A DNA stretch of 22,859 bases from a virus, in IMG/VR virus record IMGVR_UViG_3300010354_009115, positions 1-22,859 of that record; one strand, given 5' to 3'. Both the position numbers and the translations under genes were made by a program. Positions 588 to 16,076 of the stretch are shown piece by piece; the stretch's first letter is position 1; each line of letters opens with the position of its first letter. The notes under the pieces were generated by a model. It searched no databases. It saw only the letters and a list, made by a program, of their open reading frames with translations, and had not been told where the DNA came from.

Positions 588-1334
588 ATGTTTTCATTCT
601 TTCATCGCAGAAGCACAATCACCGTTGACTGTTTCACGACAGATCCTTTTGTCTATGAGTATTCGCCCATAGTCAGAGGAACTAGATGTTATCCAGATTG
701 GTGGAAGAGTCTTCCTCGCAGCGGAAGTACAGTAGATCAAGATCTAAACTTGCAAAACAATATGAAGAATTGTTACGGGTTTATCGAATTACATAAGCGA
801 TCATTTGTGCTGCGATGCTGGTCAGACATATTGTTTTCGGTAACAGAAAACGAAGGATACAAATACAATTTCCTAAGAGGAAAGGCTAAGTTTGAAGAAC
901 ATGGTTCTGATCAATACAATCATGCCTTTTCAAAATTTTACCATGCTAAATTAGGATCTCCATGGAACGTGAGAGAAAAAACAGGAATACATTTTGCCTT
1001 CTTTGCTAATCATTGGCATAATGAACACTTAGACTATATTCTACCAAATGGCGTATTAAGATATGATTGGCAGAACCAAACGAACGTGAATATGTTTATT
1101 CCAAAGAAAAACTTCACGTTCACTATAAATCTGAATCAACCATTAGTTCATATCGTTCCTCTCACAGAAAAGAAGGTCAATATGAAATGCCATCTTATCG
1201 ATGAGAAAGACTGTGAAAGAATGTTCATTGGTGTGGCAAGAACATTTGGTGGGTTCAGGAGAGCAATCACAGAACTACAAAAAGAAAAAGACGAACAGAA
1301 AAAAAGTAAATGCCCCTTTGGTTTTGGTAGATAG
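588..1334 (+). CDS. Hypothetical phage protein, 248 aa
   Basis: Soluble protein with no signal peptide or membrane segment. The N-terminal part contains IVRGTRCYPDWWKSLP, and the C-terminal half has an NFTFTINLNQPLVHIVPLTEK stretch. A WWK-L-P element near the N-terminus followed later by a P-L-V-hydrophobic-I-P-L element resembles an uncharacterised family I associate with T4-like marine phages; I cannot name its function. The last 25 residues are Lys/Glu/Gln-rich and probably disordered, ending in KCPFGFGR. Start codon ATG 588 lies two bases after the decayed gene's stop. The start and length are clear, the role is not. Confidence 0.7.
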   Translation: MFSFFHRRSTITVDCFTTDPFVYEYSPIVRGTRCYPDWWKSLPRSGSTVDQDLNLQNNMKNCYGFIELHKRSFVLRCWSDILFSVTENEGYKYNFLRGKAKFEEHGSDQYNHAFSKFYHAKLGSPWNVREKTGIHFAFFANHWHNEHLDYILPNGVLRYDWQNQTNVNMFIPKKNFTFTINLNQPLVHIVPLTEKKVNMKCHLIDEKDCERMFIGVARTFGGFRRAITELQKEKDEQKKSKCPFGFGR

Positions 1335-1344
1335 GAGAAGTAAA

Positions 1345-1452
1345 ATGAAAAGTGAACTAGAAAACATGGTTGAAGAAGATATGATCGCGGCTGGATATAA
1401 TCCCGAACTTTGGGCTGATGTAGTAGAATATTGGAATGAACGTCTTAGATAA
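1345..1452 (+). CDS. Very small hypothetical protein, 35 aa
   Basis: A 35-codon frame starting ATG 1345, with AGGAGAAG about eight bases upstream, placed between two genes on the same strand. The product (MKSELENMVEEDMIAAGY to EYWNERLR) is acidic and amphipathic, and its stop overlaps the next gene by 17 bases. The strong ribosome-binding site and tight fit argue that it is translated. It is too short to assign to a family. Confidence 0.5.
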   Translation: MKSELENMVEEDMIAAGYNPELWADVVEYWNERLR

Positions 1453-1687
1453 AACGAAGTCGATAGAATGGTGGTTCGAATGGGGTTCGACCATCATTCT
1501 TATTATCGGCGTTGCCCTCGTGGCATATAACGTATATCCTCTTGGAATATGGTTTTCGCTTGCTGGGAACATAGGATGGTTCGTAGTTGGCTGGATGTGG
1601 CGAAAATATTCGCTCTTGACAATTCAGTTAATTGTGGCTATAATATATGTATCTGGTCTACTCAATCACTATGGGATAACATCATGA
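1436..1687 (+). CDS. Small integral membrane protein, 83 aa
   Basis: After a short charged N-terminus (MNVLDKTKSIEWW) the protein is hydrophobic, with about three membrane segments: roughly residues 17-32, 36-54 and 60-76. Short loops carry the charged WRK motif near residues 55-57. The stop TGA overlaps the ATG of the next gene (ATGA at 1684-1687). Small multi-span proteins of this kind are common in T4-like accessory regions and usually have no known role. It could act in membrane remodelling or superinfection exclusion, but nothing in the sequence decides this. A perfect sigma70-type promoter lies inside its coding sequence at 1616-1644. Confidence 0.65.
   Translation: MNVLDKTKSIEWWFEWGSTIILIIGVALVAYNVYPLGIWFSLAGNIGWFVVGWMWRKYSLLTIQLIVAIIYVSGLLNHYGITS
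1616..1644 (+). promoter_or_regulatory. Consensus sigma70-type promoter inside a coding region
   Basis: TTGACA (1616-1621), a 17-base spacer and TATAAT (1639-1644): a 12 of 12 match with ideal spacing. The predicted start near 1651 lies about 33 bases before the gene at 1684. It probably gives early, host-polymerase transcription of 1684 and the genes after it. Confidence 0.7.
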
Positions 1688-2214
1688 ATCGTTTTGTTCT
1701 ACATAATGATCCTTTTATCGCGGCTAAAATGCACTGCGATAAACATGTGGTAAAGATGATCCTTGAAGAAGCGCAGATGCTTTCAACAGCTCATCGTATT
1801 CTAGATGGTAAAGAATATATTGATGCCAGTAGTGGTCGGCGCATCAAGCGTTGGCAACTTCCTAGCACCGAAAATGACAGTGTGCTATACAAGGCAACTC
1901 ATGTCGGTCATCCATGCACACAGTGGTCAATGCAATCAAACAATAACTACACATGGGCAGTTTGTTTGCTTGAAGGTTTGCTAAATGAATATACACATCG
2001 TTATGGAAAATATCATAAGACTGAAAGTATATTCAATCGATTGGTAGCGTTGCCTAAGAATATTCCAACTGGACCTTTGACTGCATTTCCTCAGGCTATG
2101 CCCGATGACTGTAAACGCAACAATCCTGTCGATGGTTATCGTGCATATTATCTTGAATACAAGAAAGCGTTTGCCAAGTGGACTAAACGCGAACAACCAG
2201 AATGGTGGGTGTGA
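1684..2214 (+). CDS. Conserved T4-like phage protein, 176 aa, function unknown
   Basis: I chose ATG 1684 because it overlaps the upstream stop (ATGA), sits downstream of the promoter at 1616-1644, and the protein then begins with the family-typical MNRFVLHNDPFIAAKMHCDK. The open frame extends upstream to 1549, but that part is a shadow of the membrane protein gene. Visible features are an N-terminal CDKHVVKMILEEAQMLSTAHR helix, a GHPCTQWSMQSNNNYTW segment, and a C-terminus FAKWTKREQPEWWV. Similar proteins with HCDKHVVKM occur in T4-like cyanophages and other marine phages. The last 48 bases, including the stop and the next start, are repeated exactly at 2803-2850. Confidence 0.75.
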   Translation: MNRFVLHNDPFIAAKMHCDKHVVKMILEEAQMLSTAHRILDGKEYIDASSGRRIKRWQLPSTENDSVLYKATHVGHPCTQWSMQSNNNYTWAVCLLEGLLNEYTHRYGKYHKTESIFNRLVALPKNIPTGPLTAFPQAMPDDCKRNNPVDGYRAYYLEYKKAFAKWTKREQPEWWV

Positions 2215-2217
2215 TGG
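2170..2217 (+). repeat. 48-bp direct repeat, copy 1
   Basis: Identical to 2803-2850 over 48 bases. This copy encodes the last 14 residues of the upstream gene (FAKWTKREQPEWWV), its stop, and the ATGG start of the methyltransferase gene. Homology continues weakly upstream (K-K-A-F here, K-K-N-F in copy 2). The two copies flank the methyltransferase gene. Confidence 0.95.
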
Positions 2218-2783
2218 ATATTCAATCGCGCATAGATAGTTACTGCAAAACGACAAACTTCCCAAGATCAATTTTTTTGAGCGAGGATGGTAGAATTGTT
2301 GGCACATGGATAATGGGAAATGCGTATGGAGTTCAGTCAGGATATTATGGTGGCTACCCAGCAGGATATCTGAAACGAATTAAGGCTCTCTTTCCAGATA
2401 AAAGAAGTTGCCTGCATTTGTTCTCAGGTAAGGTCGATCAGAGTGCATGGCCAGGTGATACTGTTGACATAAACAATACATTACAACCAACATATATAGA
2501 TGACGCCCAATCTCTTGAACATGTGCCAGTTGAAAAATATGATATAATTTTGGCTGATCCACCATATAGTGTGGAAGATTGCGATCACTACCAAACAACA
2601 ATGGTTAAAAGGAACAAAGTGATGCAGGCACTAAGCAAAGCAAATACTGGGACTCATGTTGTGTGGCTGGATCAGGTTCTACCTATGTATAGAAAAGACA
2701 CATGGAAAATGGTTGGCGTAATAGGTATGGTAAAATCAACAAATCATCGTTTCAGAGTTGTAACGATTTTCGAAAAAATTTAG
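2214..2783 (+). CDS. Putative SAM-dependent DNA methyltransferase (DPPY type), 189 aa
   Basis: The start ATG 2214 overlaps the previous stop (TGATG). The protein has a likely SAM-binding motif I, LHLFSG (residues 67-72), and a catalytic DPPY motif (115-118, in DIILADPPYS). DPPY is the motif IV signature of N6-adenine and N4-cytosine amino-methyltransferases, and the order motif I then motif IV is normal. At 189 residues it is short, with little room for a target-recognition domain, so specificity may be relaxed or depend on a partner. No restriction enzyme is seen nearby. It may protect phage DNA or modify another substrate. It lies between two exact 48-bp repeats, which suggests it arrived as a cassette. 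Confidence 0.7.
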   Translation: MDIQSRIDSYCKTTNFPRSIFLSEDGRIVGTWIMGNAYGVQSGYYGGYPAGYLKRIKALFPDKRSCLHLFSGKVDQSAWPGDTVDINNTLQPTYIDDAQSLEHVPVEKYDIILADPPYSVEDCDHYQTTMVKRNKVMQALSKANTGTHVVWLDQVLPMYRKDTWKMVGVIGMVKSTNHRFRVVTIFEKI

Positions 2784-2802
2784 TTAGAAGCATAAGAAAA
2801 AC

Positions 2803-2850
2803 TTTGCCAAGTGGACTAAACGCGAACAACCAGAATGGTGGGTGTGATGG
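2803..2850 (+). repeat. 48-bp direct repeat, copy 2 (3' end scar of the gene at 1684)
   Basis: Exact copy of 2170-2217. In frame it reads as a remnant (K-H-K-K-N, then FAKWTKREQPEWWV and stop) immediately before the ATGG of the next gene. Upstream of the repeat the remnant frame is closed by a TAG at 2785-2787. The stretch 2784-2846 holds no other gene. Confidence 0.95.
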
Positions 2851-3086
2851 GAAGAATGAAAGAATATACGCAGGAAATGTACGGCGATTCTATTGACTTC
2901 GGGCACTCGTTGCCTATAGGATATACGGAAAGCATTCGTATCATGAGTGAAAATCGCGAAATGAAACTCGCGCTTGAACGAATAATCAAAGAATGCGTTC
3001 CTGGAGTTACAGGATATCATGTTATTCGCCAAATAGCAGAGGAGGCGTTGAGTGATGATCAAACTAACAAACATGAGCAATCCTAA
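2847..3086 (+). CDS. Small hypothetical protein, 79 aa
   Basis: I place the start at ATG 2847, which lies in the repeat at the position that in copy 1 starts the methyltransferase. ATG 2856 (MKEYTQEMYGD) is the alternative. The product is soluble and acidic with a central helix-rich part (REMKLALERIIKECVPG) and a C-terminus IAEEALSDDQTNKHEQS. The segment with a Glu-x-hydrophobic pattern around KECVPG recalls small T4-like phage proteins of unknown role. It overlaps the next gene by 32 bases. Confidence 0.55.
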   Translation: MGRMKEYTQEMYGDSIDFGHSLPIGYTESIRIMSENREMKLALERIIKECVPGVTGYHVIRQIAEEALSDDQTNKHEQS

Positions 3087-3252
3087 TGTGTTGGATATGC
3101 CTATCTACATAAACACAGAACATATCGCTTCGGTGTATGAACGTCGCAATGATGCAAGCGTTGCGACGATTGTCTATTGTGTAAATGGTATTGAATGGAT
3201 TGTTGAAGAATCTCTAACTGAAGTAATGAGAAAGATAAATGAACAACGCTAA
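3055..3252 (+). CDS. FlbD-like small protein, 65 aa
   Basis: ATG 3055 is nine bases after a GGAGG, which decides the start over the preceding in-frame GTG. The protein reads MIKLTNMSN, then PIYINTEHIASVYE, then GIEWIVEESLTEVMRKI. This follows the plan of the flagellar FlbD family (MIKLT, an NxExI-type strand, G-x-x-W-x-V-x-E-S-hydrophobic-x-E-V). In flagellated bacteria FlbD is a small protein of the motility operons; in phage the role of such proteins is unknown, and the similarity may be only a shared small beta fold. The stop overlaps the thyX start. Confidence 0.55.
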   Translation: MIKLTNMSNPNVLDMPIYINTEHIASVYERRNDASVATIVYCVNGIEWIVEESLTEVMRKINEQR

Positions 3253-3913
3253 GATTATTGGTATCACTCAGCCTATGAATATGGGTGAAGCAGACTTGAA
3301 TATTGATGAGTTCATTGCGTATGTTGCTCGTGTAAGCAATCCATCGAATCAGAGCAATCATCTTACTGCCAACAAGCTGCTAAAGTATCTGATGAAGCAC
3401 AAGCACTGGTCGCCTTTTGAGATGGTCAATGTCGTTATGGAGATCAATACCACTCGTGATATTGCTCGCCAAATTTTGCGTCATCGTTCATTCAGTTTCC
3501 AAGAGTTCAGCCAGCGTTATGCTGATCCTACTAAGGACTTGGGTTTCGTTATTCGTGAGGCTCGTCTTCAGGATCAAAAGAATCGACAGAACAGCATTGA
3601 AACTGATGATGGTGAACTTGAAAATCAATGGCAGGGAGCACAACAGTCAGTCCGTGACCATGTAATGAAGGCATATACATGGGCGATTGAAAACGGTATC
3701 GCCAAGGAACAAGCACGTGCTGTTCTTCCTGAAGGTTTAACGGTTTCTCGCATGTATATGAATGGAACACTTCGTAGCTGGATTCATTATTGCCAGTTGC
3801 GTATGGGTCCAGAAACACAGAAAGAGCATCGTGAAGTTGCTCGTGATGCTTGGTATCAGATTACAGAAACGTTTCCCTCACTGAGGGATTGCCTTGATCT
3901 AGGAGAAAAGTGA
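3239..3913 (+). CDS. thyX: Flavin-dependent thymidylate synthase ThyX, 224 aa
   Basis: ThyX makes dTMP from dUMP using methylenetetrahydrofolate, FAD and NADPH, supplying thymidine for phage DNA synthesis. The signature RHR-x7-S is present at residues 81-91 (RHRSFSFQEFS), followed by QRY. The C-terminal half has the substrate-binding part EQARAVLPEGLTVSRM with the downstream RSWIHYCQLR helix. The length is normal for the family and all expected motifs are intact. The start ATG 3239 overlaps the FlbD-like gene's end, and the stop forms TGATG with the next gene. A second, diverged copy of the last 27 codons sits at 4175-4258. Confidence 0.95.
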   Translation: MNNAKIIGITQPMNMGEADLNIDEFIAYVARVSNPSNQSNHLTANKLLKYLMKHKHWSPFEMVNVVMEINTTRDIARQILRHRSFSFQEFSQRYADPTKDLGFVIREARLQDQKNRQNSIETDDGELENQWQGAQQSVRDHVMKAYTWAIENGIAKEQARAVLPEGLTVSRMYMNGTLRSWIHYCQLRMGPETQKEHREVARDAWYQITETFPSLRDCLDLGEK

Positions 3914-4199: not shown

Positions 4200-4258
4200 A
4201 TTGCTGGTATGCTATTATTGAAGAATTTCCTTCTCTGAAAGACTCACTCGAGTTATAA
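4175..4258 (+). pseudogene. Remnant of a second thyX 3' end
   Basis: In the frame beginning at 4175, directly after a TGA, the DNA encodes KEHREIALDCWY, then AIIEEFPSLKDSLEL and stop. This aligns without gaps to the thyX C-terminus (KEHREVARDAWY, then QITETFPSLRDCLDL), 18 of 27 residues identical by my count. There is no start codon or upstream thyX sequence. The remnant's stop TAA (4256-4258) lies inside the late promoter TATAAATA. It appears to be the 3' end of an older or different thyX left behind when the present one and two small genes moved in. Confidence 0.85.
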
Positions 4259-4261
4259 ATA
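4254..4261 (+). promoter_or_regulatory. T4-type late promoter of the curli-like operon
   Basis: TATAAATA followed by CTTTCG, an exact match to the T4 late -10 consensus, which in T4 is read by gp55 with gp33 and the sliding clamp. It is 27 bases upstream of csgF, and the window carries a likely gp33 gene at 17682. The csgF ribosome-binding region is the purine run GGAAAGGAAAGG at about 4272-4283. Confidence 0.75.
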
Positions 4262-4287: not shown

Positions 4288-4749
4288 ATGAAAGCATCAA
4301 CAGCTTTCGTTATGCTTTTCGTTATGTCTTCATCCGTTAATTCAGCTGAAATGACACATCAATTCCTGTCACCATCTTTTAATGGAGCAGGATACACTAG
4401 CCACGTTTTATCCATATACAATATGGAATTGAGTAGAAAACTGGCTATCGAAGCACAAAGAAAAGCTGATTTATTAAAAGCAGAACAAGATGCCGCCAAT
4501 ACCCCATTGGCTAGGTTTCTTGCAAATTTAGAGTCTCGCGTGTTTAATGAACTCGCAAGACAGATGGTAGATAGAATGTTCTCTGGTGACGGTGAAGCAA
4601 ATCAGAGAGGTTCATTTACATTAGGTGGAAATACCATCGACTGGTATAGAGATGGCACAGAAGTCGTTCTTAATGTTACTGATGTTAATGGAACACTAAC
4701 AACAATCAGAGTACCATTAGGAGATTTCGGATGGATTCCACCAACCTAA
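4288..4749 (+). CDS. csgF: CsgF-like curli secretion accessory protein, 153 aa
   Basis: CsgF is exported to the cell surface and binds the CsgG pore, its N-terminal peptide forming a second constriction and its body anchoring the curli nucleator. The signal peptide MKASTAFVMLFVMSSSVNSA probably ends at residue 20, so the mature protein starts EMTHQFLSPSFNG. This matches the pore-binding N-terminus of CsgF (M-T-F/Y-Q-F-x-N/S-P-x-F-x-G). The C-terminal domain, TIDWYRDGTEVVLNVTDVNG and TLTTIRV, matches the CsgF beta domain (I-x-I-x-R-x-G-x-x-x-L-x-V-T-D). The middle has a Lys/Ala-rich helix. It is somewhat longer than the 138-residue E. coli protein. It overlaps csgG by 19 bases. Confidence 0.85.
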   Translation: MKASTAFVMLFVMSSSVNSAEMTHQFLSPSFNGAGYTSHVLSIYNMELSRKLAIEAQRKADLLKAEQDAANTPLARFLANLESRVFNELARQMVDRMFSGDGEANQRGSFTLGGNTIDWYRDGTEVVLNVTDVNGTLTTIRVPLGDFGWIPPT

Positions 4750-5537
4750 AAGCAGTTACATTATTAATCTCTGCTCTTGCTCTTGGTGGATGTGCCACTG
4801 CAGCTGGCACAAAAGCAATACCATATCAAGATGCAACAGTAACAACACCAACATTCTATAAGAAACAAGCGGTCCCCCAACCAGGTGGTCCGCCAATTGC
4901 CGTTGCAGTCTATAGATTTAATGATCAGACTGGGCAAAGAAAAGCATCACAGAATGTAGCAGTATTAAGTTCTGCTGTAACTCAAGGTGCAGACAATTAC
5001 CTGATCCGCTCTCTACAAGAAATCGGTGGCGGTAAATGGTTCAAAGTCATCGAACGTGGTAATCTAGATCATCTTATCAAAGAACGTCAAATCATTCGTC
5101 AAATGCGTGAACAATATGAAGGTAAGGATGCAAAACCATTACCACCAATGCTATTTGCTGGTGTTCTTCTTGAAGGTGGTATTATAGGTTACGACTCAAA
5201 TGTGAAAACTGGCGGTGCTGGCGCAAGAGTGTTAGGCATTGGAGCATCAACTCAATACAGCATTGATGAAATCGTAGTATCTCTCCGTGCAGTGTCAGTC
5301 ACCACAGGAGAAGTATTAGTATCTGTTACAACAACCAAAACGGTATATTCATTTAGAGATAATGCAGGTATGTTGAAGTTTGTCGATGCTGGAACAAGAG
5401 CATTAGAAGCAGAACTTGGCGCTGCCTCTAACGAAAGTATGAATAAAGCAGTTCAACTAGGTGTTCACGCTGCTGTGTTAGAACTAATCAAAGAAGGCGC
5501 AAGAAAGAAACACTGGAAAATTAAAGGAGCAAAATAA
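4731..5537 (+). CDS. csgG: CsgG-like outer-membrane secretion lipoprotein, 268 aa
   Basis: CsgG is a nonameric outer-membrane lipoprotein channel that exports unfolded curli subunits. The lipobox LALGGC gives a lipidated Cys21. The family core is plain: PIAVAVYRFNDQTGQ, GGKWFKVIERGNLDHLIKER with QIIRQ after it, GGIIGYDSN, GGAGARVLGIG, and the beta strands IDEIVVSLRAVSVTTGEVL with SVTTTKTVYS. The length is near that of E. coli CsgG. In the pore-constriction region (KASQNVAVLSSAV) I do not see the aromatic pair Tyr51/Phe56 of the E. coli loop, so the pore may be gated differently. AGGAG lies nine bases before ATG 4731. The stop is TAATG with the curlin gene. Confidence 0.95.
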   Translation: MDSTNLKAVTLLISALALGGCATAAGTKAIPYQDATVTTPTFYKKQAVPQPGGPPIAVAVYRFNDQTGQRKASQNVAVLSSAVTQGADNYLIRSLQEIGGGKWFKVIERGNLDHLIKERQIIRQMREQYEGKDAKPLPPMLFAGVLLEGGIIGYDSNVKTGGAGARVLGIGASTQYSIDEIVVSLRAVSVTTGEVLVSVTTTKTVYSFRDNAGMLKFVDAGTRALEAELGAASNESMNKAVQLGVHAAVLELIKEGARKKHWKIKGAK

Positions 5538-6205
5538 TGCGTAAATTTACAGCTTTCGTCATGTTCTTGATGTTGGCTGTTACTTCCCATGCATTTGCAC
5601 AAAATAAAGTTTATATTGAGCAGGCAGGTAACTCGAATTCAATAGATATCACACAAGTAGGAAACGGAAACAGAGTCGGTGATGCAAACTCAATTGCACT
5701 AATCACGGGTAATGGTAACTCAGTAACAACTTCACAGACTGGTAGTTCAAACGTAATTGACTATAACATAACTGGTAATAACAACACTGTAACAAAAACT
5801 ATTGTCGGTGACGGTAACACAAATACAACCACACTCGGTGATGGAACAACTGCTGCCACTAATGTTACAACAACAGCAACAGTTACAGGTGATGATAATA
5901 ACATAACACAAACTATCAAAGGTAATCTAATCACTTCTACCATTGATATTCAAGGCAACACTAACTCAATTACTCAAACAATAACAACAAGCAACAGCAA
6001 CAGTAACATTAGCATTCTTGGTGATCTAAACACCATCACCTCAACAATGTCTGGTTCTTCTGCTGGAGGCGGTCATCAATTGACTATGGATATTACAGGT
6101 TCGAGCAATCAATATACTATTGCTCAGACTGGTACAGTTGATACAATCGTAAGTGTTACAACAAATGGTTCTTCAAACGTAGTAAACATAAACTCAGGAA
6201 ACTAA
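5537..6205 (+). CDS. Curlin-repeat secreted amyloid protein, 222 aa
   Basis: Probable main fibre subunit or nucleator (CsgA/CsgB type). A signal peptide MRKFTAFVMFLMLAVTSHAFA precedes the mature QNKVYIEQAGNSNSIDITQVG. The rest is a series of about eight imperfect strand-loop-strand units of about 20-25 residues, rich in Asn, Thr, Ser and Gly, such as ITGNGNSVTTSQTGSSN, ITGNNNTVTKTIVGDGN and VTGDDNNITQTIKGN. These follow the curlin pattern of alternating hydrophobic and polar strands with G-x-x-N and Q positions. Only the first units keep the strict Q-x-G-x-x-N spacing. There are no cysteines. It immediately follows the pore gene, so it is most likely the pore's substrate. Confidence 0.85.
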   Translation: MRKFTAFVMFLMLAVTSHAFAQNKVYIEQAGNSNSIDITQVGNGNRVGDANSIALITGNGNSVTTSQTGSSNVIDYNITGNNNTVTKTIVGDGNTNTTTLGDGTTAATNVTTTATVTGDDNNITQTIKGNLITSTIDIQGNTNSITQTITTSNSNSNISILGDLNTITSTMSGSSAGGGHQLTMDITGSSNQYTIAQTGTVDTIVSVTTNGSSNVVNINSGN

Positions 6206-6206
6206 A

Positions 6207-7274
6207 ATGCTTAGAGTCCTGATGGCGTTATTGCTATTACCATCAGTAGCATATGCTGAAATTGGTTCGGTCGAATCATTCAAAGGTAATATCAGTATTG
6301 ACAGAAACAAAAATATATTCGATGGGAAAAAACAAAGTCCCATCGAATCTATGGATACTGTTATAACCAAATCTGAATCCGAAGCAAAACTCAAATTCAA
6401 AGATGATACGACTGTTAGAATAACACCTAACAGTCGTTTGCTTATTGACGACTTTGTTTATGACCCAAGTAATTCAGACGCAAGTAAAATATCACTCAAA
6501 GCAGCCATGGGAACTATTCGTTATGCGTCTGGACAAATAGCCAGAAACGATCCACAAAAAGTTGCTATCAGAACACCCACTGCTACTATATCCGTTCGTG
6601 GTACTGATTTTGCCATGTCTGTAGATGAAATCGGCAGAAGCCTCATTGTATTATTACCTAGCTGCGATGATGATCGCAAAATGTATAATTATGATGAAAG
6701 ACAAAATTGCGCTGTTGGTGAAATCAAAGTAGAAACACCAGAAGGATTTGTTGTTCTCAATCAACCATTCACCGCAACTACTGTTTATTCTGCTTCACAA
6801 ACACCAACACCTCCCGTTAGGATAAAACCAGACATTCGTATTATCAATAATAATATGTTTCTTGACACTCCCGATAGCATAACTGCAATGTTATCAAAAA
6901 TGAAAAAGGAAGAAGAAAAAAAGAAATTTCCTATAATTGAAATGACAGAAGAAGAAACAAAAGTGGCTGCTGATAATTCGAATAAGAAAATAACAGTAGA
7001 ACAAATAGCCCTAATCAATTCTGTTAAACTAAAAGTTTCACCAGACGCCATAAGACTTTCTGATTGTTCTGTGTTTAATGTGTGCTGGAATGAACGTGGA
7101 TTGAATCGATATCTAAAAGTGGATGGCAAATCAAAGAGCACAATCTATATTGGTATCAATGAAAGACAGGATAATGCAACTTATACTATTTCTCAGAATA
7201 GCGCAGAACCAGAAATCAAAATAACTGGAACTGGAAATCAAAACAGAATAACAATAAGGCAGCTTGATAGATGA
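6207..7274 (+). CDS. Periplasmic FecR-domain protein with curlin-like C-terminus, 355 aa
   Basis: The signal peptide MLRVLMALLLLPSVAYA is followed by a FecR domain (about residues 20-135): GSVESFKGNISI, DDTTVRITPNSRLLIDDF, LKAAMGTIRY, and RTPTATISVRGTDFAM, the last being the family's T-P-x-A-x-x-x-V-R-G-T-x-F signature. FecR domains sense or bind surface structures and signal to membrane partners. A Lys/Glu-rich helix follows (near residues 230-260), and the protein ends ITGTGNQNRITIRQLDR, which has the curlin G-x-x-N-x-x-x-x-x-Q spacing. Cysteine pairs (SCDD with QNCAV, and DCSVFNVC) suggest disulfides. FecR and CHASE2-cyclase genes are commonly neighbours in proteobacteria, so the two probably work together. 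Confidence 0.85.
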   Translation: MLRVLMALLLLPSVAYAEIGSVESFKGNISIDRNKNIFDGKKQSPIESMDTVITKSESEAKLKFKDDTTVRITPNSRLLIDDFVYDPSNSDASKISLKAAMGTIRYASGQIARNDPQKVAIRTPTATISVRGTDFAMSVDEIGRSLIVLLPSCDDDRKMYNYDERQNCAVGEIKVETPEGFVVLNQPFTATTVYSASQTPTPPVRIKPDIRIINNNMFLDTPDSITAMLSKMKKEEEKKKFPIIEMTEEETKVAADNSNKKITVEQIALINSVKLKVSPDAIRLSDCSVFNVCWNERGLNRYLKVDGKSKSTIYIGINERQDNATYTISQNSAEPEIKITGTGNQNRITIRQLDR

Positions 7275-8668
7275 GAAAAATTCTAGCACTGTTGTTCGCT
7301 TTGATCATAACTGTTGCATATGCGGAAGACCTTGGTGGAAATTTTGGGTTTGAAACTGGAACAATGTCTGGTTGGACTATCAGCAATGGTTCAGGAACAG
7401 TTAAATCTGCTACATCATGGAACTCAAATGGTACTGGTGTTAATGTAACAACAGGCATAACAAATTATAGTCCTGGTGGTGGTAACACATGGAATGTTAC
7501 TGGCTATGGTTCATACATGGCAAGTATTCAAGCTGGCTCTGGTTCTCCTACATTTGATGCCTCTACAACATCACTTGGTTTAACTGGTGCTGAGAATACT
7601 GCTATCAAAACATTTTTGACAAATCAGGGTGGTAATAGTAATCCAACCAATGCTTCATGGATGAAAAGAAACGTAACACTTGAAGCAGGTAAAACATACA
7701 CCATTGCTTGGCAATATATGTCAACTGATTATGTTCCATTCAATGATGGTTCAATGATTACACTAACACATTCTACAAATGCTGGAATTATACCTACTCT
7801 TAATAACGAACAGAAAAGATACGCTTTATTAGGCTTCACTAATCCTGGAACTGGTAACTATTCAACAGGCAGTTATGGTTCTACTGGTTGGCAATTGGCA
7901 GTATTCACTGTTCCAGAAAACGGTGAGTATACATTAGGATTTGCTTCGTTCAATCTTGGTGACACTGCTCTCAGTCCTATTCTATTAGTCGATCAAATAC
8001 AAGGTACGACTACACTGAATGGAACAAACTTCGGTCCTATCGCACCAAACGCTGGTTCTACAGCGCCGACAACACCAACGCAACCAACAACTCCTTCATA
8101 TGCTAGTTCAATAACAACACAACAACAGAACAGAGTTAACACTTGGTTGAATCGTGGTAATAATTCAAGCGGTGTTTATATCGAACAGATCGGAAACAAT
8201 AATAATATAACAGTTCTGCAAAAGAATCATAAAGATAACTATATCAAATATCAAGGTGCTGGAAATAATAGCACAGTGAATATAACTCAACAAACAGATA
8301 ATGGAACTGGTGCTGGACATTACTTAGAATTAACTAACACTGGTAACCAGAACACGATAAATCTTACACAAGATAATAACGGTGGTAAGAAAATGTTTGT
8401 TGATAATAATGGATCTGGGAATAACATTAATGTTACTCAGAAGAATGGTGGCAATCATTATCTTGATCTAGGATTAACTGGCAATGGTCATTCTGCTACT
8501 ATTGTGCAAGAAGGATCTGGTAACCATGCTGCTACGATACGACTAAATAATGCAGGTGGTTCTTCTACTTTGAATCTTAGTCAGTCTGGAACTACTAATC
8601 AAGTGTATTCTATAGAACAAACATGCACTAATCCAGCTGGGTGTAGTGTATCGGTGACTCAACAATGA
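7271..8668 (+). CDS. Secreted adhesin-like protein with C-terminal curlin repeats, 465 aa
   Basis: Three parts are visible. A signal peptide (MRKILALLFALIITVAYA) leads to an N-terminal domain of about 235 residues starting NFGFETGTMSGWTISNG, with strands such as VTLEAGKTYTIAWQYMSTD and VPENGEYTLGFASFNLGD; this looks like a beta-sandwich of the kind seen in carbohydrate-binding or surface proteins. A Thr/Pro linker (TAPTTPTQPTTPS) follows. From about residue 300 come seven or so curlin-like units (VYIEQIGNNNNITVLQ, GNNSTVNITQQ, GNQNTINLTQ, GNNINVTQ, GHSATIVQEGSGN). The last 20 residues hold two cysteines. The plan suggests a fibre tip or fibre-anchored adhesin that joins the amyloid through its repeats. 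It overlaps both neighbours through ATGA. Confidence 0.8.
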   Translation: MRKILALLFALIITVAYAEDLGGNFGFETGTMSGWTISNGSGTVKSATSWNSNGTGVNVTTGITNYSPGGGNTWNVTGYGSYMASIQAGSGSPTFDASTTSLGLTGAENTAIKTFLTNQGGNSNPTNASWMKRNVTLEAGKTYTIAWQYMSTDYVPFNDGSMITLTHSTNAGIIPTLNNEQKRYALLGFTNPGTGNYSTGSYGSTGWQLAVFTVPENGEYTLGFASFNLGDTALSPILLVDQIQGTTTLNGTNFGPIAPNAGSTAPTTPTQPTTPSYASSITTQQQNRVNTWLNRGNNSSGVYIEQIGNNNNITVLQKNHKDNYIKYQGAGNNSTVNITQQTDNGTGAGHYLELTNTGNQNTINLTQDNNGGKKMFVDNNGSGNNINVTQKNGGNHYLDLGLTGNGHSATIVQEGSGNHAATIRLNNAGGSSTLNLSQSGTTNQVYSIEQTCTNPAGCSVSVTQQ

Positions 8669-10710
8669 AAAAACTTATAGCATTTTTAATCCTTGGACTA
8701 TTTGTATTTTTGAAAGTGATGGATTATTCGCCTGTTGAGATATTGCGACTAAAGACGTTTGATTATTTGTTAACAAGCAAAACGCCAGTTAAGTCGGATA
8801 ATATTGTTATTGTTTCTATTGATGAAAAATCAATAAAAGAAAAAGGTCAGTGGCCATGGTCGCGCAAAGATATTGCGGAGACCATGGAAACATTGTTCAA
8901 GCAAGGCGCAGGAATAGTTGTGTTTCCTGTTCTTATGTCCGAAAAAGATAGAATGGGCACTGATGAAATCCTTTCTGAGTTTCTGAAGAAACAGAAGGGC
9001 GTTGTAATATCACAAACGCCAACGACTCAGAAAGGAAATGAAAATGCAGTTGTTCGTGGATATTCAGCTATTGGTGGTGACGTTCTACCTTATATTGCTA
9101 GGTGGAATAGTGTTATCGGTCCTTTACCCGATTTTGGTAAGAATGCTTCGGGCGTCGGGATGGCAGCGACCACTCCTGAAAGGGACGGTGTTGTACGCCG
9201 CATCCCTATGCTTGTGGCTATTGGCGAGTCTGTATTTCCCTCGATTGTTTTGGAATCTATACGTGTTGCTGTAGGATCACCATCATTTCAAATTAAATCT
9301 ACCGATGCGGGAATTGAAGCAGTCAGAGTTCGTGGATTCAAACCGCTAACAACCGATTCAAACGCTAGAATATGGCTAAACTGGAACTATCAATTCAATA
9401 AGATATCTTACACAGATATTGCAAAAACAGATATCAAAGGCAAGATAGCTATTCTTGGATTGGAAGTAGAAGGCGTTGGAGGAATTATTGCTACACCATT
9501 AGGATCGAAATGGTCTCATGAAATACAGGCATTAGGTATTGAATCTGCGATACAGGGTAACACACCAGTTCGCTTTGCATTCGCTAATCTTCTTGAAGCA
9601 ATCAGTATTGCTACTATTGGTATTGCGGTGATATTACTCACACCCATACTATTACCCATCGTAACATACTTATTATATCCCATATTTGTTGGATTGTCAA
9701 GTCTTTTTTCTTACTATATGTTCAAAGAATATGGACAGCTGTGGGATGTGAGTTTTCTGATTGTATCTTTCACCATCGTGTTCGGATACATGGTAATTCT
9801 AAAATTCCTCAAAGAACTATTCCTGAAACTACAAATCAAGAAACAGTTTGGTACATATCTTTCACCAGCACTGGTTGAGAAGCTACAGAAGAATCCTGAC
9901 CTGCTAAAACTAGGAGGAGAAACCCGTGAGCTGTCAATTATGTTTACGGATGTTCGTGGTTTTACTTCTATTTCTGAGCACTATGGCGATAATGTGCAAG
10001 GTCTTACACAAATAATGAATCGTTACATGACAGCTATGACGGAGAAGATTATCAAAAATGAAGGCACTTTGGATAAGTATATTGGAGATGCTCAAATGGC
10101 TTTCTGGAACGCTCCCTTAGATAATCCAAGACATGCCAGAGACGCGGTTAAAACAGCACTGGAGATGCTAGATGATTTGGACGTTTTCAATAATTCTATC
10201 TCGTCTGAAGGGGTTCCTCCTTTTGGTATGGGCATTGGGATCAATACTGGTAGTGTTGTCGTTGGCAACATGGGCTCTGCTCAAAGATTTGATTATACCT
10301 GTTTGGGCGATTCTGTCAACTTGGCTTCGAGGCTAGAAGGACAGTCAAAGAACTATGGAGTAAGATTGATTATAGGCGAAGAAACCGCTAAACAGATAAT
10401 GAACGATTTCCATGTCATAAAACTTGATGTTATAGCAGTCAAAGGAAAAAACATTGGAGTTGGAATATACACTATTATATCACCAAACGATATCATGCCC
10501 GTATACCAAAGCACACACAAAGATTTTCGAAAATTCTATGGAGAAGGTAATTGGGATCAAGCATTAGAATTCTTGAGAGTATTAAAGAGCGATCGTGTTT
10601 TCAATGGATTTCTCAAAGAATACTATATAATAATGGAGGAGCGGATTTTAGAATATAAAGCTAATCCACCTGAAAATTGGGATGGAACATATAAAGCAAC
10701 TAGCAAGTGA
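8665..10710 (+). CDS. CHASE2-domain class III adenylate cyclase, 681 aa
   Basis: Membrane receptor cyclase. The first 20 residues are a membrane anchor. Residues about 25-300 form a CHASE2 sensor, expected in the periplasm (RLKTFDYLL, IVIVSIDEKSIKEKGQWPW, GPLPDF, DGVVRRIP, KIAILGL). Three membrane segments lie at about 307-380, then a linker (FGTYLSPALVEKL) and the catalytic domain (about 420-605). Catalytic residues are present: metal-binding Asp429 (MFTDVRGFTSIS) and Asp475 (DKYIGDAQMAFW), Lys471 and Thr545 at the base-specifying positions, and Asn552 and Arg556 for the transition state (GDSVNLASRLEG). Lys/Thr fits ATP, so the product is probably cyclic AMP. The gene overlaps the adhesin gene by ATGA and ends the operon. 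Confidence 0.93.
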   Translation: MKKLIAFLILGLFVFLKVMDYSPVEILRLKTFDYLLTSKTPVKSDNIVIVSIDEKSIKEKGQWPWSRKDIAETMETLFKQGAGIVVFPVLMSEKDRMGTDEILSEFLKKQKGVVISQTPTTQKGNENAVVRGYSAIGGDVLPYIARWNSVIGPLPDFGKNASGVGMAATTPERDGVVRRIPMLVAIGESVFPSIVLESIRVAVGSPSFQIKSTDAGIEAVRVRGFKPLTTDSNARIWLNWNYQFNKISYTDIAKTDIKGKIAILGLEVEGVGGIIATPLGSKWSHEIQALGIESAIQGNTPVRFAFANLLEAISIATIGIAVILLTPILLPIVTYLLYPIFVGLSSLFSYYMFKEYGQLWDVSFLIVSFTIVFGYMVILKFLKELFLKLQIKKQFGTYLSPALVEKLQKNPDLLKLGGETRELSIMFTDVRGFTSISEHYGDNVQGLTQIMNRYMTAMTEKIIKNEGTLDKYIGDAQMAFWNAPLDNPRHARDAVKTALEMLDDLDVFNNSISSEGVPPFGMGIGINTGSVVVGNMGSAQRFDYTCLGDSVNLASRLEGQSKNYGVRLIIGEETAKQIMNDFHVIKLDVIAVKGKNIGVGIYTIISPNDIMPVYQSTHKDFRKFYGEGNWDQALEFLRVLKSDRVFNGFLKEYYIIMEERILEYKANPPENWDGTYKATSK

Positions 10711-10716
10711 ATTATT

Positions 10717-11331
10717 ATGATTTTTTGTAATGAACCAAAACCATTTCCATATCTGAAAGTCCGTGAGTTCTACGACGAACGTGAACTAGGATTGATATGG
10801 CAAGAACTAGACTTCCTTACCTATAAAGATAAACTAGAACCTCCTTCTGAAACTGGTCAGAAGGATAATGATATGAAAAGCAATAGTGGAGTGTTTCTAG
10901 ACAGTCTTTACAAGAACCGCAGTTTCTCAAATATATTGACAGTAAATAGAAAGTTGTTCAGTCGTGATATCATGGAGTCTATGGTAAATCTTGACAAAAT
11001 CATGTCTGCATATTATAATAACTGTGATCATGACGGAAGTTTGGTGAGTTATTACGAACAAGCAGACTATTACAAATCACATGTGGATAGAACAATCATA
11101 ACTTCTATCTCATGGCACTTCAAAAAACCAAAAGGATTCACTGGCGGCGATTTGATTTTTACTGATTACAATGAACGAATTGTGATTGAGGACAACATGT
11201 TGGTTATATTTCCATCATGTGTCAGGCACGAAGTTACAGCAATTGAAATGAATCCAGGAGTAGAGCCATTCAAGGGATACGGTAGATATGCACTCTCAAA
11301 CTTCGTCGGATATGGTCCTAACAAAAACTGA
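10717..11331 (+). CDS. 2-oxoglutarate/Fe(II) oxygenase, prolyl-4-hydroxylase-like, 204 aa
   Basis: The facial triad and cosubstrate arginine are visible: His122 and Asp124 (YKSHVDRT), His171 (FPSCVRHEV) and Arg190 (GYGRYALSNF). These enzymes hydroxylate proteins or small molecules using oxygen and 2-oxoglutarate, and homologues are frequent in T4-like phages. It begins six bases after the cyclase stop with no clear ribosome-binding site, so it may be translated by re-initiation as the seventh gene of the curli operon. The target is unknown; the Pro/Thr linker of the adhesin is one speculative candidate. A perfect sigma70-type promoter lies within its coding sequence at 10991-11019. Confidence 0.8.
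   Translation: MIFCNEPKPFPYLKVREFYDERELGLIWQELDFLTYKDKLEPPSETGQKDNDMKSNSGVFLDSLYKNRSFSNILTVNRKLFSRDIMESMVNLDKIMSAYYNNCDHDGSLVSYYEQADYYKSHVDRTIITSISWHFKKPKGFTGGDLIFTDYNERIVIEDNMLVIFPSCVRHEVTAIEMNPGVEPFKGYGRYALSNFVGYGPNKN
10991..11019 (+). promoter_or_regulatory. Consensus promoter-like sequence inside the oxygenase gene
   Basis: TTGACA (10991-10996), 17 bases, TATAAT (11014-11019). The predicted start is near 11026. The only plus-strand sequence downstream for 900 bases is the oxygenase 3' end, then the antisense side of the minus-strand genes 11339-12174. It may be real (antisense RNA) or a coincidence in AT-rich coding DNA. Confidence 0.35.
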
Positions 11332-11338
11332 AGCTATA

Positions 11339-11689
11339 TTACTTTTTTTTGGCTTCTTGTTTCTGGTTATCAGCAGTATCTTCGGTTGGCTTAGATACGG
11401 TCCCCTTCTCTTCATTAACAATAAACTCATTAGCTTTTTGTGTTAACTCGTCGTGTTCCATTTTACGGAGTTGAAGAACTATATTAACTTTTTGATTAAG
11501 ACGAATGAGGTCATTATCCAACATACGAATACGATCAATGAGAGCAATCAAAACTTTATTAGCGTCTGATAATACTGGTTTGACTTCTTTTGTTGCCCAC
11601 ACCCAAACGAAATAAACGAAATAACCAAGCCCAACTGCTGCAACAATAGGAAAACCGTATTTACTTATAAGCTCTGCGATATTGCCCAT
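11339..11689 (-). CDS. Small one-TM protein with coiled coil, holin-like candidate, 116 aa
   Basis: The N-terminus (MGNIAELISKYGFPIVAAVG) leads into one membrane segment at about residues 12-33, ending with aromatic residues. An amphipathic, probably coiled-coil stretch (LIALIDRIRMLDNDLIRL) follows, and then a charged tail ending KKK. It is a paralogue of the protein at 11887-12174: both have GFPI-hydrophobic-AA, a G-Y-F motif and a D-x-R-hydrophobic-x-x-hydrophobic-x-x-D-hydrophobic-I-R pattern. The layout resembles BhlA/UviB-type holin-like proteins, but this is a resemblance of plan only. It is the last gene of a minus-strand late block and converges with the oxygenase gene. Confidence 0.6.
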   Translation of the reverse strand: MGNIAELISKYGFPIVAAVGLGYFVYFVWVWATKEVKPVLSDANKVLIALIDRIRMLDNDLIRLNQKVNIVLQLRKMEHDELTQKANEFIVNEEKGTVSKPTEDTADNQKQEAKKK

Positions 11690-11915
11690 CTTTGATCTCT
11701 ACTCTTTTTAATGCGGCTCTACCATCATCTAGTTCAACTGCTTCAAAAAAAGTGCCTGGTTTAAATGGTAATAGTTTATTTACTCTTTGTTTAGGATTAG
11801 AAGTGAATACAAGTTCTTCGTCGAATATAATTATGTCTGAGCCTATTGAAAATGTATATCCCAAATGAGGCATAGCTTGTTTGTATTCAGTCTCTTCTTG
11901 CGTCGTTTTTGCCAT
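11661..11915 (-). CDS. Small soluble hypothetical protein, 84 aa
   Basis: The open frame runs further upstream, but ATG 11915 (MAKTTQEETEYKQ) is the likely start, because it gives a 29-base overlap with the upstream gene, equal to the 29-base overlap with the gene below. The product has no signal peptide or membrane segment. Its middle (SIGSDIIIFDEELVFTSNP) and end (AVELDDGRAALKRVEIKDG) look like a small beta-barrel. It sits between two paralogous membrane proteins, which suggests the three act together. No family recognised. Confidence 0.55.
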   Translation of the reverse strand: MAKTTQEETEYKQAMPHLGYTFSIGSDIIIFDEELVFTSNPKQRVNKLLPFKPGTFFEAVELDDGRAALKRVEIKDGQYRRAYK

Positions 11916-12174
11916 CTGCTCTTGCCAATCTATCAACATCGGGCTTGACACCCATTGCATTTGATACCAAAGTATCGATTCGAATAACATCGTGATTCAT
12001 TGTTTTTACTCGATTGTCGAGTGCGGTAATGATACCACTTAGACCTTGTACTGAACTCATAACACCAGCGAGTATAAATTTCATTGTAAGGAAGATAAAA
12101 TAACCACCAGCAATTGCTGCCGCTATAGGGAATCCTACATCGGAAATAAGTTTAAATGCTGCGTTTACATCCAT
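11887..12174 (-). CDS. Small one-TM protein, paralogue of 11339-11689, 95 aa
   Basis: ATG 12174 follows AAGGAAAT and a minus-strand late promoter 30 bases upstream, so I prefer it to longer in-frame starts. The N-terminus (MDVNAAFKLISDVGFPIAAA) leads into a membrane segment (about residues 14-38), then an amphipathic stretch (ITALDNRVKTMNHDVIRID). It shares its plan with the protein at 11339-11689 but has a shorter tail. Duplicated small membrane proteins expressed late are plausible lysis or membrane-disrupting proteins; no endolysin is directly adjacent to test that. Confidence 0.6.
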   Translation of the reverse strand: MDVNAAFKLISDVGFPIAAAIAGGYFIFLTMKFILAGVMSSVQGLSGIITALDNRVKTMNHDVIRIDTLVSNAMGVKPDVDRLARADGKNDARRD

Positions 12175-12203
12175 GGTAGATTTCCTTTCTTTCTTTCCGC
12201 CTT

Positions 12204-12211
12204 TATTTATA
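12204..12211 (-). promoter_or_regulatory. T4-type late promoter, minus strand
   Basis: Read on the minus strand this is TATAAATA followed by AAGGCG, an exact late -10 consensus 30 bases before the ATG at 12174. It would drive the three-gene minus-strand block 12174-11339. Confidence 0.7.
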
Positions 12212-12246
12212 TATTTGATTGAAACGCTAAATAAGGATATAAGATT

Positions 12247-12480
12247 ATGCCAACATATACGTTCCATAACACCAAGACCGATAAATACCATGAGGAGTTC
12301 ATGACAATTTCCTCCATGGAAGAGTATCTCGCACAAAATCCCCACATCAATATATTACCTGCCGCTCCGATGATCGTATCGGGCGTTGCTTCAGGCACAA
12401 ACAAACCAGATAGTGGATTTCGCGATCTACTCAAGACTATCAAGAAAAATAGTCCCCGTTCAACAATCAACACATTCTAG
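12247..12480 (+). CDS. Conserved T4-like small protein, 77 aa
   Basis: The protein begins MPTYTFHNTKTDKYHEEFMT and ends SGFRDLLKTIKKNSPRSTIN followed by TF. This matches a small family common in T4-like cyanophages and relatives (M-P-T-Y-x-F at the start, ENPHI-like centre, D-x-G-F-R-D-hydrophobic-L-K near the end). The N-terminus resembles FmdB-type regulators, but the paired cysteines of the FmdB zinc ribbon are absent. AAGGAT is eight bases upstream. It is read divergently from the minus-strand late block. Role unknown, possibly regulatory. Confidence 0.65.
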   Translation: MPTYTFHNTKTDKYHEEFMTISSMEEYLAQNPHINILPAAPMIVSGVASGTNKPDSGFRDLLKTIKKNSPRSTINTF

Positions 12481-13351: not shown

Positions 13352-14038
13352 ATGAGAATGCGATTTGACTATTCACCACATATTGATTTACCCAAAGCAA
13401 AACAAATCAATTCGCCCAGCGGGAGACGATACGAAACTCCCGCTGGTTCGCTTTATCCTTCCATAACAACTGTTCTTGGTTCTCAGCCAGAAAAGAAACG
13501 TTCGCTCGCAGAATGGCGCGCTCGCGTGGGCGAAGAAAAGGCACGAGCAATATCTACGCAAGCAGCACGTCGCGGGACTAATCTTCATAATCTCATGGAA
13601 AAGTATATCCTCGGCGATGACGTTGATCCTATAACAGTCCTGCCAGCAACTATCGCGCATTTCAAACCAGTAAGAAAATGTGTTGACAAAAACCTCCAGC
13701 TGGTATATACTACAGAAACTTCGATGTATTCTGATCTACTACGAATTGCAGGAACTGCAGACTTGATCTGTGAATGGGACGGCGAAGTTACAGTGGTGGA
13801 TTTCAAGACTTCGCGAACTATGAAAACTCGTGAAATGATTCACGACTACTTTCTTCAGGCAACCGCATACACGATTATGTTCGAGGAACACACTGGAATC
13901 GAAACCTATAATATCGCTATCCTAATGGTTACGGATGAGGGAGAGTTTCAGGAGTTCCGTGGGCATCGAAATGATTATGTTGCGGATTTGCTGAATGTTC
14001 GTAATGATTTCGAAAAAAGAGTCTTGACAAACGCCTAG
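13352..14038 (+). CDS. RecB-like PD-(D/E)XK exonuclease, 228 aa
   Basis: The nuclease core is clear: His79 in RRGTNLHNLME, Asp137 in AGTADLI, and Asp150/Lys152 in VVDFKTSR, with the supporting helix YFLQATAYTIMFEE. This is the plan of the Cas4/RecB-family phage exonucleases related to MGME1, which process DNA ends in replication and recombination. No Shine-Dalgarno is seen before ATG 13352 or ATG 13358, so the start is uncertain by two codons. Its last codons contain the -35 box of the tmRNA promoter. Confidence 0.85.
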   Translation: MRMRFDYSPHIDLPKAKQINSPSGRRYETPAGSLYPSITTVLGSQPEKKRSLAEWRARVGEEKARAISTQAARRGTNLHNLMEKYILGDDVDPITVLPATIAHFKPVRKCVDKNLQLVYTTETSMYSDLLRIAGTADLICEWDGEVTVVDFKTSRTMKTREMIHDYFLQATAYTIMFEEHTGIETYNIAILMVTDEGEFQEFRGHRNDYVADLLNVRNDFEKRVLTNA

Positions 14039-14052
14039 TATTGATATAGAAT
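14024..14052 (+). promoter_or_regulatory. Promoter of the tmRNA gene
   Basis: TTGACA (14024-14029), 17 bases, TAGAAT (14047-14052). The sequence CTTGACAAACG around the -35 box is shared with the gp32 promoter at 18502. AATAAATACTT (14050-14060) overlaps the -10 and differs by one base from the late consensus in front of csgF, so the RNA may be made both early and late. Confidence 0.7.
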
Positions 14053-14058
14053 AAATAC

Positions 14059-14422
14059 TTGGTTATCGTTGAAGTTGACGATAGACGGATCGGACGTGGG
14101 GGCAGTACCCGCCCAGTCCACCATAAGTACAATAAGCATCCCTCAAGCAATCGTTTAGGTCGAGGGACGAACTAAAGGATGAGCTTCTTATTGTACTTTT
14201 GATGGGGGCGAAACTAGGATCGACGGACGTTGATGCGGAGATGGAGATAACGGGATGACCGCCTAATAGGTCAAAAACTATAGGTGCCAACGATAATGTT
14301 GCTCCTCGTTACGCTCTAGCAGCCTAACATGAGTTTTCGGTGGGTTTGACTTGGAAACAGAATAAACCCACCAACTAATGCGCCCGAGGGGAGGCGTGCG
14401 CTAAACAAAATTTCCCCTCATC
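14059..14422 (+). ncRNA. ssrA: Circularly permuted (two-piece type) tmRNA
   Basis: tmRNA rescues stalled ribosomes and tags their products. The permuted order is clear: an acceptor part ending CCACCA (14118-14123), a linker (14124-14203) closed by the stem AGTACAATAAG/CTTATTGTACT, then the usual tmRNA 5' end, GGGGGCGAAACTAGG from 14204 followed by ATCGACGG. The tag frame starts at GCC 14286 and encodes ANDNVAPRYALAA with stop TAA at 14325-14327. Downstream are a 9-bp stem (14339-14347 with 14364-14372) and an H-type pseudoknot (GCGC 14380-14383 with 14398-14401; GAGGGGA 14386-14392 with TCCCCTC 14413-14419). ANDN...LAA is the alphaproteobacterial tag pattern. Exact processed ends are not visible. 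Confidence 0.92.
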
Positions 14423-15224: not shown

Positions 15225-16076
15225 ATGTCTTTTTACAATGATTGTGGTAATGATAAACCATTGAGTATTATCGCTGGTCCTTGCGTGTTTGAAGGAAAAT
15301 ACCATGCGATAGAAATGGCTGATCGTTTGCGAACTATAGTCCAAGATATTGGATTTGTGTTGGGACGATCAGTCAACTTCATATATAAGACGTCCTTCGA
15401 TAAGGCGAATCGAACATCTGCGGGAGGCTATAGAGGTGCGGGGTTCGATGAAGCGTTTTATGGAATGGACGCCGTCCGTGGATTAGGTATTCCTGTTCTT
15501 ACGGACGTTCATGACCCCTGGCAATGTGCGGCGGTAAATGCTGATATCATACAGATTCCCGCTTTCCTTTGCAGGCAGACTGATCTACTCGAGGCAGCAG
15601 CGCAGACTGGTAAACCAGTCAATGTCAAGAAAGGTCAGTTTCTTTCACCACAAGAAATGAAAAACGTGGTGGAAAAGTTGGAACATTTTGGTTGCAAGCA
15701 AATTATGCAAACTGAACGCGGAACAACATTTGGTTATAATAATCTAGTTGTTGATATGCGTTCACTTGATATTATGAAACGCAACCAATATCCTGTTATC
15801 ATGGACTGTACTCATGCAGTCCAACTTCCTGGAGGTCAAGGAACATCATCTGGCGGTCAACGTGAGTTCGTACAAACTCTTGCTCGTGCGGCAGTTGCTG
15901 TTGGCGTGGCAGGCGTTTTTATGGAAGTGCATAATGATCCTGATAATGCTCCGTGTGATGGACCCAATATGTTAGATCTTGACATGTTCGAAGATTTACT
16001 ATATGATTTGTTGAAGATTGATCGTGTGAGAAAGGAAATTGATCATGAAAGACGACTTCAAGGAAGACAGCAATAA
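15225..16076 (+). CDS. kdsA: KDO-8-phosphate synthase (KdsA), 283 aa
   Basis: KdsA joins phosphoenolpyruvate and arabinose-5-phosphate to give KDO-8-phosphate, the precursor of the lipopolysaccharide inner-core sugar. The protein is full length and holds the family motifs: IIAGPCVFEGK, FIYKTSFDKANRTS, LTDVHDPWQ, KKGQFLSPQEM, TERGTTFGYNNL, DCTHAVQLPGG and MEVHNDPDNAPCDGPN. The Cys of GPC stands where metal-dependent KdsA enzymes have their metal-binding cysteine (metal-independent ones have Asn), and the His and Glu/Asp partners are present. No KdsB or arabinose-5-phosphate isomerase is nearby, so it would boost the host pathway. Other members of the aldolase family (DAHP or NeuB type) fit less well. 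Confidence 0.9.
   Translation: MSFYNDCGNDKPLSIIAGPCVFEGKYHAIEMADRLRTIVQDIGFVLGRSVNFIYKTSFDKANRTSAGGYRGAGFDEAFYGMDAVRGLGIPVLTDVHDPWQCAAVNADIIQIPAFLCRQTDLLEAAAQTGKPVNVKKGQFLSPQEMKNVVEKLEHFGCKQIMQTERGTTFGYNNLVVDMRSLDIMKRNQYPVIMDCTHAVQLPGGQGTSSGGQREFVQTLARAAVAVGVAGVFMEVHNDPDNAPCDGPNMLDLDMFEDLLYDLLKIDRVRKEIDHERRLQGRQQ

Follow-up and report, generated by a model that had tools for sequence, protein, structure and literature searches.

A phage curli operon in which a FecR-domain protein may link fibre state to a CHASE2-class III cyclase

The DNA analyzed here (the window: 22,859 bases, an IMG/VR virus record from a T4-like virus of bacteria) encodes a six-gene curli operon on the plus strand. In order, the genes are csgF (4288–4749; PF10614, E 9.2e-14); csgG, for the outer-membrane curli secretion channel (4731–5537; PF03783, E 1.4e-52); curlin 1, which is CsgA/B-like (5537–6205; PF07012, E 1.1e-4); an exported protein that has a FecR domain and a C-terminal tail resembling curlin (6207–7274; PF04773, E 3.7e-11); curlin 2, comprising a head (approximately residues 20–265) followed by curlin repeats and recognized through the domains of its homologues (7271–8668); and a CHASE2-class III cyclase (8665–10710; PF05226, E 1.2e-37; PF00211, E 1.4e-21). 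We tentatively read this operon as a late amyloid-adhesin type VIII (curli) secretion module in which FecR couples the state of the fibre to the cyclase, a reading to which we give somewhat less than even odds. Phage genes lie on both flanks (ThyX, PhoH, an exonuclease, a T4-type single-stranded DNA-binding protein, and endolysin/tail genes). The operon genes overlap or almost abut, with ATGA overlaps at the FecR/curlin 2 and curlin 2/cyclase junctions; the latter joins the cyclase to curlin 2, so its coupling is with that gene and not directly with FecR. An earlier sequence-only reading had the cyclase translationally coupled to FecR and the amyloid genes, which holds for curlin 2 but not directly for FecR; the gene set that it observed is confirmed, with the correction that a second curlin gene is situated between FecR and the cyclase.

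The gene order is shared by every viral locus with sufficient upstream sequence among the 84 examined first (curlin 2 being variably present), and by almost all long loci in two further sets of 80 each, collected around the phages HTVC008M and Melnitz, where the exceptions are a few extra or doubled ORFs. This order is far from chance. Related cyclases number in the hundreds in IMG/VR, a single scan of which returned at least 599 such loci. Both the cultured Pelagibacter phage HTVC008M, grown on Ca. Pelagibacter ubique HTCC1062, and the Methylophilales phage Melnitz (OM43) carry the six genes in the identical order. This contradicts the sequence-only reading, which knew of no such set in any described phage. 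A curli operon in pelagimyophages was reported by Zaragoza-Solas et al. (2020; PMC7029224), and Wittmers et al. (2022; PMC9599517) describe FecR and adenylate cyclase in pelagiphages of two families, within their curli clusters, so that the gene set itself is ordinary. Podoviral pelagiphage clusters have a histidine kinase in front; none was recognized before csgF among the upstream window ORFs scanned (not all small ORFs being covered), and the cultured myophages HTVC008M and Melnitz have no annotated histidine kinase at that position. CHASE2, the FecR tail, and the curlin 2 heads are not mentioned in the passages of Wittmers et al. consulted here, and the PHROGs family that spans the whole cyclase is listed as of unknown function. 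New here are the curlin-like FecR tail, the exchangeable curlin 2 heads, the T4-type late promoter, the closest bacterial cyclases often following giant FecR proteins in loci lacking curli, the lack of class I and class III cyclases in SAR11, and three fixed cyclase subfamilies.

The cyclase has the architecture of a CHASE2 sensor: by hydropathy, an N-terminal transmembrane segment (residues ~1–27), CHASE2 (~28–303), a cluster of transmembrane segments (304–389), and the cyclase output domain from ~395. Its description as a membrane class III cyclase with CHASE2 is therefore upheld, as are the six active-site residues named for it, all of which are present: the metal-binding D429 and D475, the base-specifying K471 with T545, and N552 and R556 for the transition state. 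Across 83 phage cyclases, D429, K471, D475, and R556 are invariant, T545 is present in 81, and N552 in 82. Relative to the close relative L004, dN/dS is 0.08 for the whole gene and 0.046 for the catalytic part, so purifying selection acts on the enzyme. At positions 545 and 552, each of three subfamilies has its own fixed pair of residues: T/N in the window group, S/N in 79 HTVC008M-like loci, and D/S in Melnitz-like loci. In class III cyclases, Lys–Thr and Lys–Asp pairs point to adenine; the window cyclase, judged by these residues, probably produces cAMP, whereas in the Melnitz group the Ser that occupies position 552 may change activity or reduce it. A decaying or relaxed cyclase in the phages of SAR11 and OM43 was considered and rejected, as the catalytic residues are retained among the relatives of these phages and the substitutions are fixed there. 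The HTVC008M and Melnitz cyclases differ at 48 and 43, respectively, of 122 positions conserved in the other phages, part of which contrast is due to how the first sequence set was selected. The phage cyclases form one clade, separate from the nearest bacterial ones sampled; the latter, retrieved with an alignment query (a single-sequence query gave none), are 32–36% identical and nearly all alphaproteobacterial.

The FecR-domain protein consists of a signal peptide and one periplasmic FecR domain, with no anti-sigma part. In a structure model the domain matches PupR-type surface-signalling domains (6ovk, 4m0h), a fold that the window protein has in common with FecR/PupR regulators. The FecI/FecR/FecA system, by contrast, comprises an anti-sigma part, a sigma factor, and a TonB receptor; the window protein has only PF04773 and the signal peptide, and neither fecI nor fecA was recognized beside it in the window. 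Its last ~50 residues, modelled with low confidence, finish with a strand whose terminal Gln352 is invariant (27 phages). The Pfam curlin model PF07012 matched none of the 27 FecR proteins. In hhalign, the tail profile aligns with curlin 2 over 46 columns (probability 74, score 33.6) and scores 27.8 against curlin 1, compared with null maxima of 14.3 for 30 column permutations, 15.6 for reversed tails, and 19.4 for windows of unrelated families, the exception among the nulls being signal-peptide windows, which aligned to signal peptides. FecR-domain proteins occur in 134 of the 367 genomes of an alphaproteobacterial sample, and the bacterial matches, among those listed, end near position 260 of the 368-position profile, short of the tail. 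Given the curlin-like profile score and the point at which bacterial FecR ends, the tail looks, at profile level, like a phage addition linked to curli. A match of FecR to a ‘cell surface anchoring domain’ (5ix9; 62 columns, E 9e-3) is a weak lead toward an anchoring or retention role.

Outside phages, FecR and CHASE2-cyclase genes were expected to co-occur as envelope-sensing modules, and the pairing holds up. In 24 of 80 bacterial loci, a FecR-domain protein is encoded no more than 1.5 kb upstream of the CHASE2-cyclase, mostly within 200 bases, and FecR adjoins CHASE2-cyclase in Campylobacterota (PMC9239204). The window thus resembles bacterial clusters of Campylobacterota and alphaproteobacteria in placing a FecR protein next to a class III cyclase with CHASE2. 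It differs from them in that bacterial FecR domains often belong to giant cadherin/RTX proteins (partners often exceed 1,000 residues and contain cadherin-like and RTX repeats) or are accompanied by TPR and phosphodiesterase genes, with curli genes absent nearby. CsgG, CsgF, and curlin were found near none of the 80 bacterial CHASE2-cyclases, and neither FecR nor cyclase lies within ~10 kb of alphaproteobacterial curli at any of five loci; identical operons in host chromosomes, which the sequence-only reading had said would tell against it, were looked for in these 80 cyclase and five curli loci and none was present. Within the loci sampled, the combination of FecR, cyclase, and curli is found in phages only. 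As a side observation, one SAR11 genome (locus L351) has a large FecR-domain protein of its own (1456–3693), directly after a TPR protein whose C-terminus is barrel-like (59–1456), even though class I and class III cyclases are absent from the SAR11 order. That FecR and the CHASE2-cyclase were acquired together from bacteria, and are neighbours of curli with no action on it, is consistent with the occurrence of the pair in bacteria without curli and with the single phage clade apart from the nearest bacterial cyclases sampled. We nevertheless regard this as distinctly improbable, because the two curlin genes alternate with FecR and the cyclase, in an order kept across very divergent phages, and because the phage FecR has a curlin-like tail.

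Curlin 2 of HTVC008M and of the locus L077 has a PA14 head followed by curlin repeats, and that of L052 and L053 an F5/8C head followed by the same. The window head has no Pfam match; it recurs in L004 and in L179 (a phage contig of 250 kb that has this operon too), with 55% identity in the latter. An AlphaFold model of this head (mean pLDDT 36) was discarded. Interchangeable heads of binding type suggest that the fibre is an adhesive amyloid. Many other phages have a short curlin 2 only, and in most window-like relatives (such as L007, 8616–8876) it is ~90 residues long, with two Cys and a C-terminal NQY.

A T4-type late promoter, TATAAATA, is situated at 4254–4261 on the plus strand, 34 bases upstream of the csgF start. 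The motif NATAAATA occurs at –220 to +40 of csgF in 20 of 49 loci, vs. ~2.5 expected; upstream of the remaining operon genes it is seldom seen (CsgG, 0/53; CurA, 1/57; FecR, 0/60; CurB, 2/41; AC, 5/74); other promoter scans of the window gave results near chance. From the position of this motif, the operon is probably expressed late in infection. Late expression also suits a proposal made for Melnitz (PMC9004378), extended here, by which the CsgG/CsgF pore is a lysis timer whose opening is governed by FecR and the cyclase; that cell clumping was not seen with Melnitz agrees with this, and counts against the fibre model. Two curlin genes with conserved repeats and swappable heads have been kept, however, which a pure pore does not need, and CsgG pores sit in the outer, not the inner, membrane; we therefore consider a lysis timer improbable.

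According to our tentative reading of a fibre-coupled module, the operon would work as follows. CsgG and CsgF would export curlin 1 and the head-bearing curlin 2, giving a fibre that, judged by these domains, would be an adhesive amyloid. Periplasmic FecR, via its curlin-like tail, might associate with curlin that is nascent or not yet exported, or with the pore, after which its FecR domain would pass a signal to CHASE2, the periplasmic part of the membrane cyclase. CHASE2 may otherwise keep the cyclase in check, by analogy with Sinorhizobium meliloti CyaD1, which produces cAMP constitutively without CHASE2 (PMC5498481). The released cyclase would make a cyclic nucleotide, which its residues indicate is probably cAMP in the window. 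As a cNMP-binding domain was found in none of 13 related phage records, and in almost no SAR11 genome, this output lacks a known target.

The SAR11 order was delimited from two genomes that match four 16S probe sequences, which we take to be SAR11 probes, and comprises 117 genomes. Class III and class I cyclases are each encoded by 0 of the 117, and a weak cNMP-binding match is present in 7, always inside an acyltransferase-domain protein. An example of this rare SAR11 protein, with cNMP-binding-like and acyltransferase domains, is at 919–3264 of the locus L172. As controls, class III cyclases were found in 26 of the 32 genomes from a different order with small genomes, and clear cNMP-binding domains in all eight of the other bacterial genomes tested via loci. 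Given their consistency across 117 genomes, it is unlikely that the SAR11 absences are due to genome gaps. With no class I or class III cyclases and almost no cNMP-binding domains, rewiring of cAMP through CRP is unlikely in SAR11.

These counts bear on the suggestion, made in the sequence-only reading, that the phage rewires host cAMP, for which a CRP-type receptor would serve lysis timing or a block to second infections. The suggestion does not fare well for SAR11-infecting relatives: the host clade of HTVC008M is the one with no class III or class I cyclase and few, weak cNMP-binding matches, and the catalytic residues are nonetheless fixed in the 79 HTVC008M-like phages. The survey concerns the hosts of relatives; the host of the window need not be SAR11-like, the window cyclase has intact residues, and receptors are common in other alphaproteobacteria, as in the eight genomes tested. 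On balance, we regard host cAMP rewiring as quite unlikely. The product might instead matter in itself and not as host cAMP, be it as some other cyclic nucleotide, as a signal that is exported, or through the draining of ATP. The three subfamilies with fixed T/N, S/N, and D/S residues, and the lack of a canonical receptor in the SAR11 order or the phages, are consistent with this; Lys471 and the metal aspartates are kept, however, and there is no independent sign of a different product, and we give this explanation little credence. A more far-reaching version of the fibre-coupled module, which we put forward as speculative and on the whole unlikely, is a self-contained viral amyloid sensor, whereby a FecR protein with a curlin-type tail would report fibre assembly or the state of the pore to the CHASE2-cyclase and the nucleotide made in SAR11 would bypass any CRP-type receptor, acting via an undescribed target or as a product other than cAMP.

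Hundreds of viral contigs have curli modules with this cyclase, modules whose function has been termed a mystery. The puzzle is now sharper, given the apparent lack of standard cAMP receptors and cyclases in the SAR11 order: SAR11 phages retain a cyclase that looks functional, in hosts without a known reader of its product, while the anatomy of the operon (tail, heads, and late timing) offers a testable model. The HTVC008M group has Ser where the window cyclase has T545, and in the cyclase of the Melnitz curli operon (PMC9004378) Asp occupies position 545 and Ser position 552, a pair that is fixed in that group; the six-gene order is the same in both phages as in the window, which thereby has the order of the type VIII secretion (curli) cluster of pelagiphages.

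The surroundings of the operon have further genes of their own. A 2OG-Fe(II) oxygenase gene (10717–11331) starts six bases past the cyclase; neither HTVC008M nor Melnitz keeps it at that position. Just past the operon (11339–12345), the minus strand encodes two small, related proteins, which belong to one PHROG family and have weak holin-like hits. At 14020–14372 there is a permuted (two-piece) tmRNA of alphaproteobacterial type (Rfam RF04321, RF01849), and Melnitz likewise has a phage tmRNA. Positions 15225–16076 encode a phage-borne KDO-8-phosphate synthase (for a lipopolysaccharide precursor), scoring over the NCBIfam cut-off.
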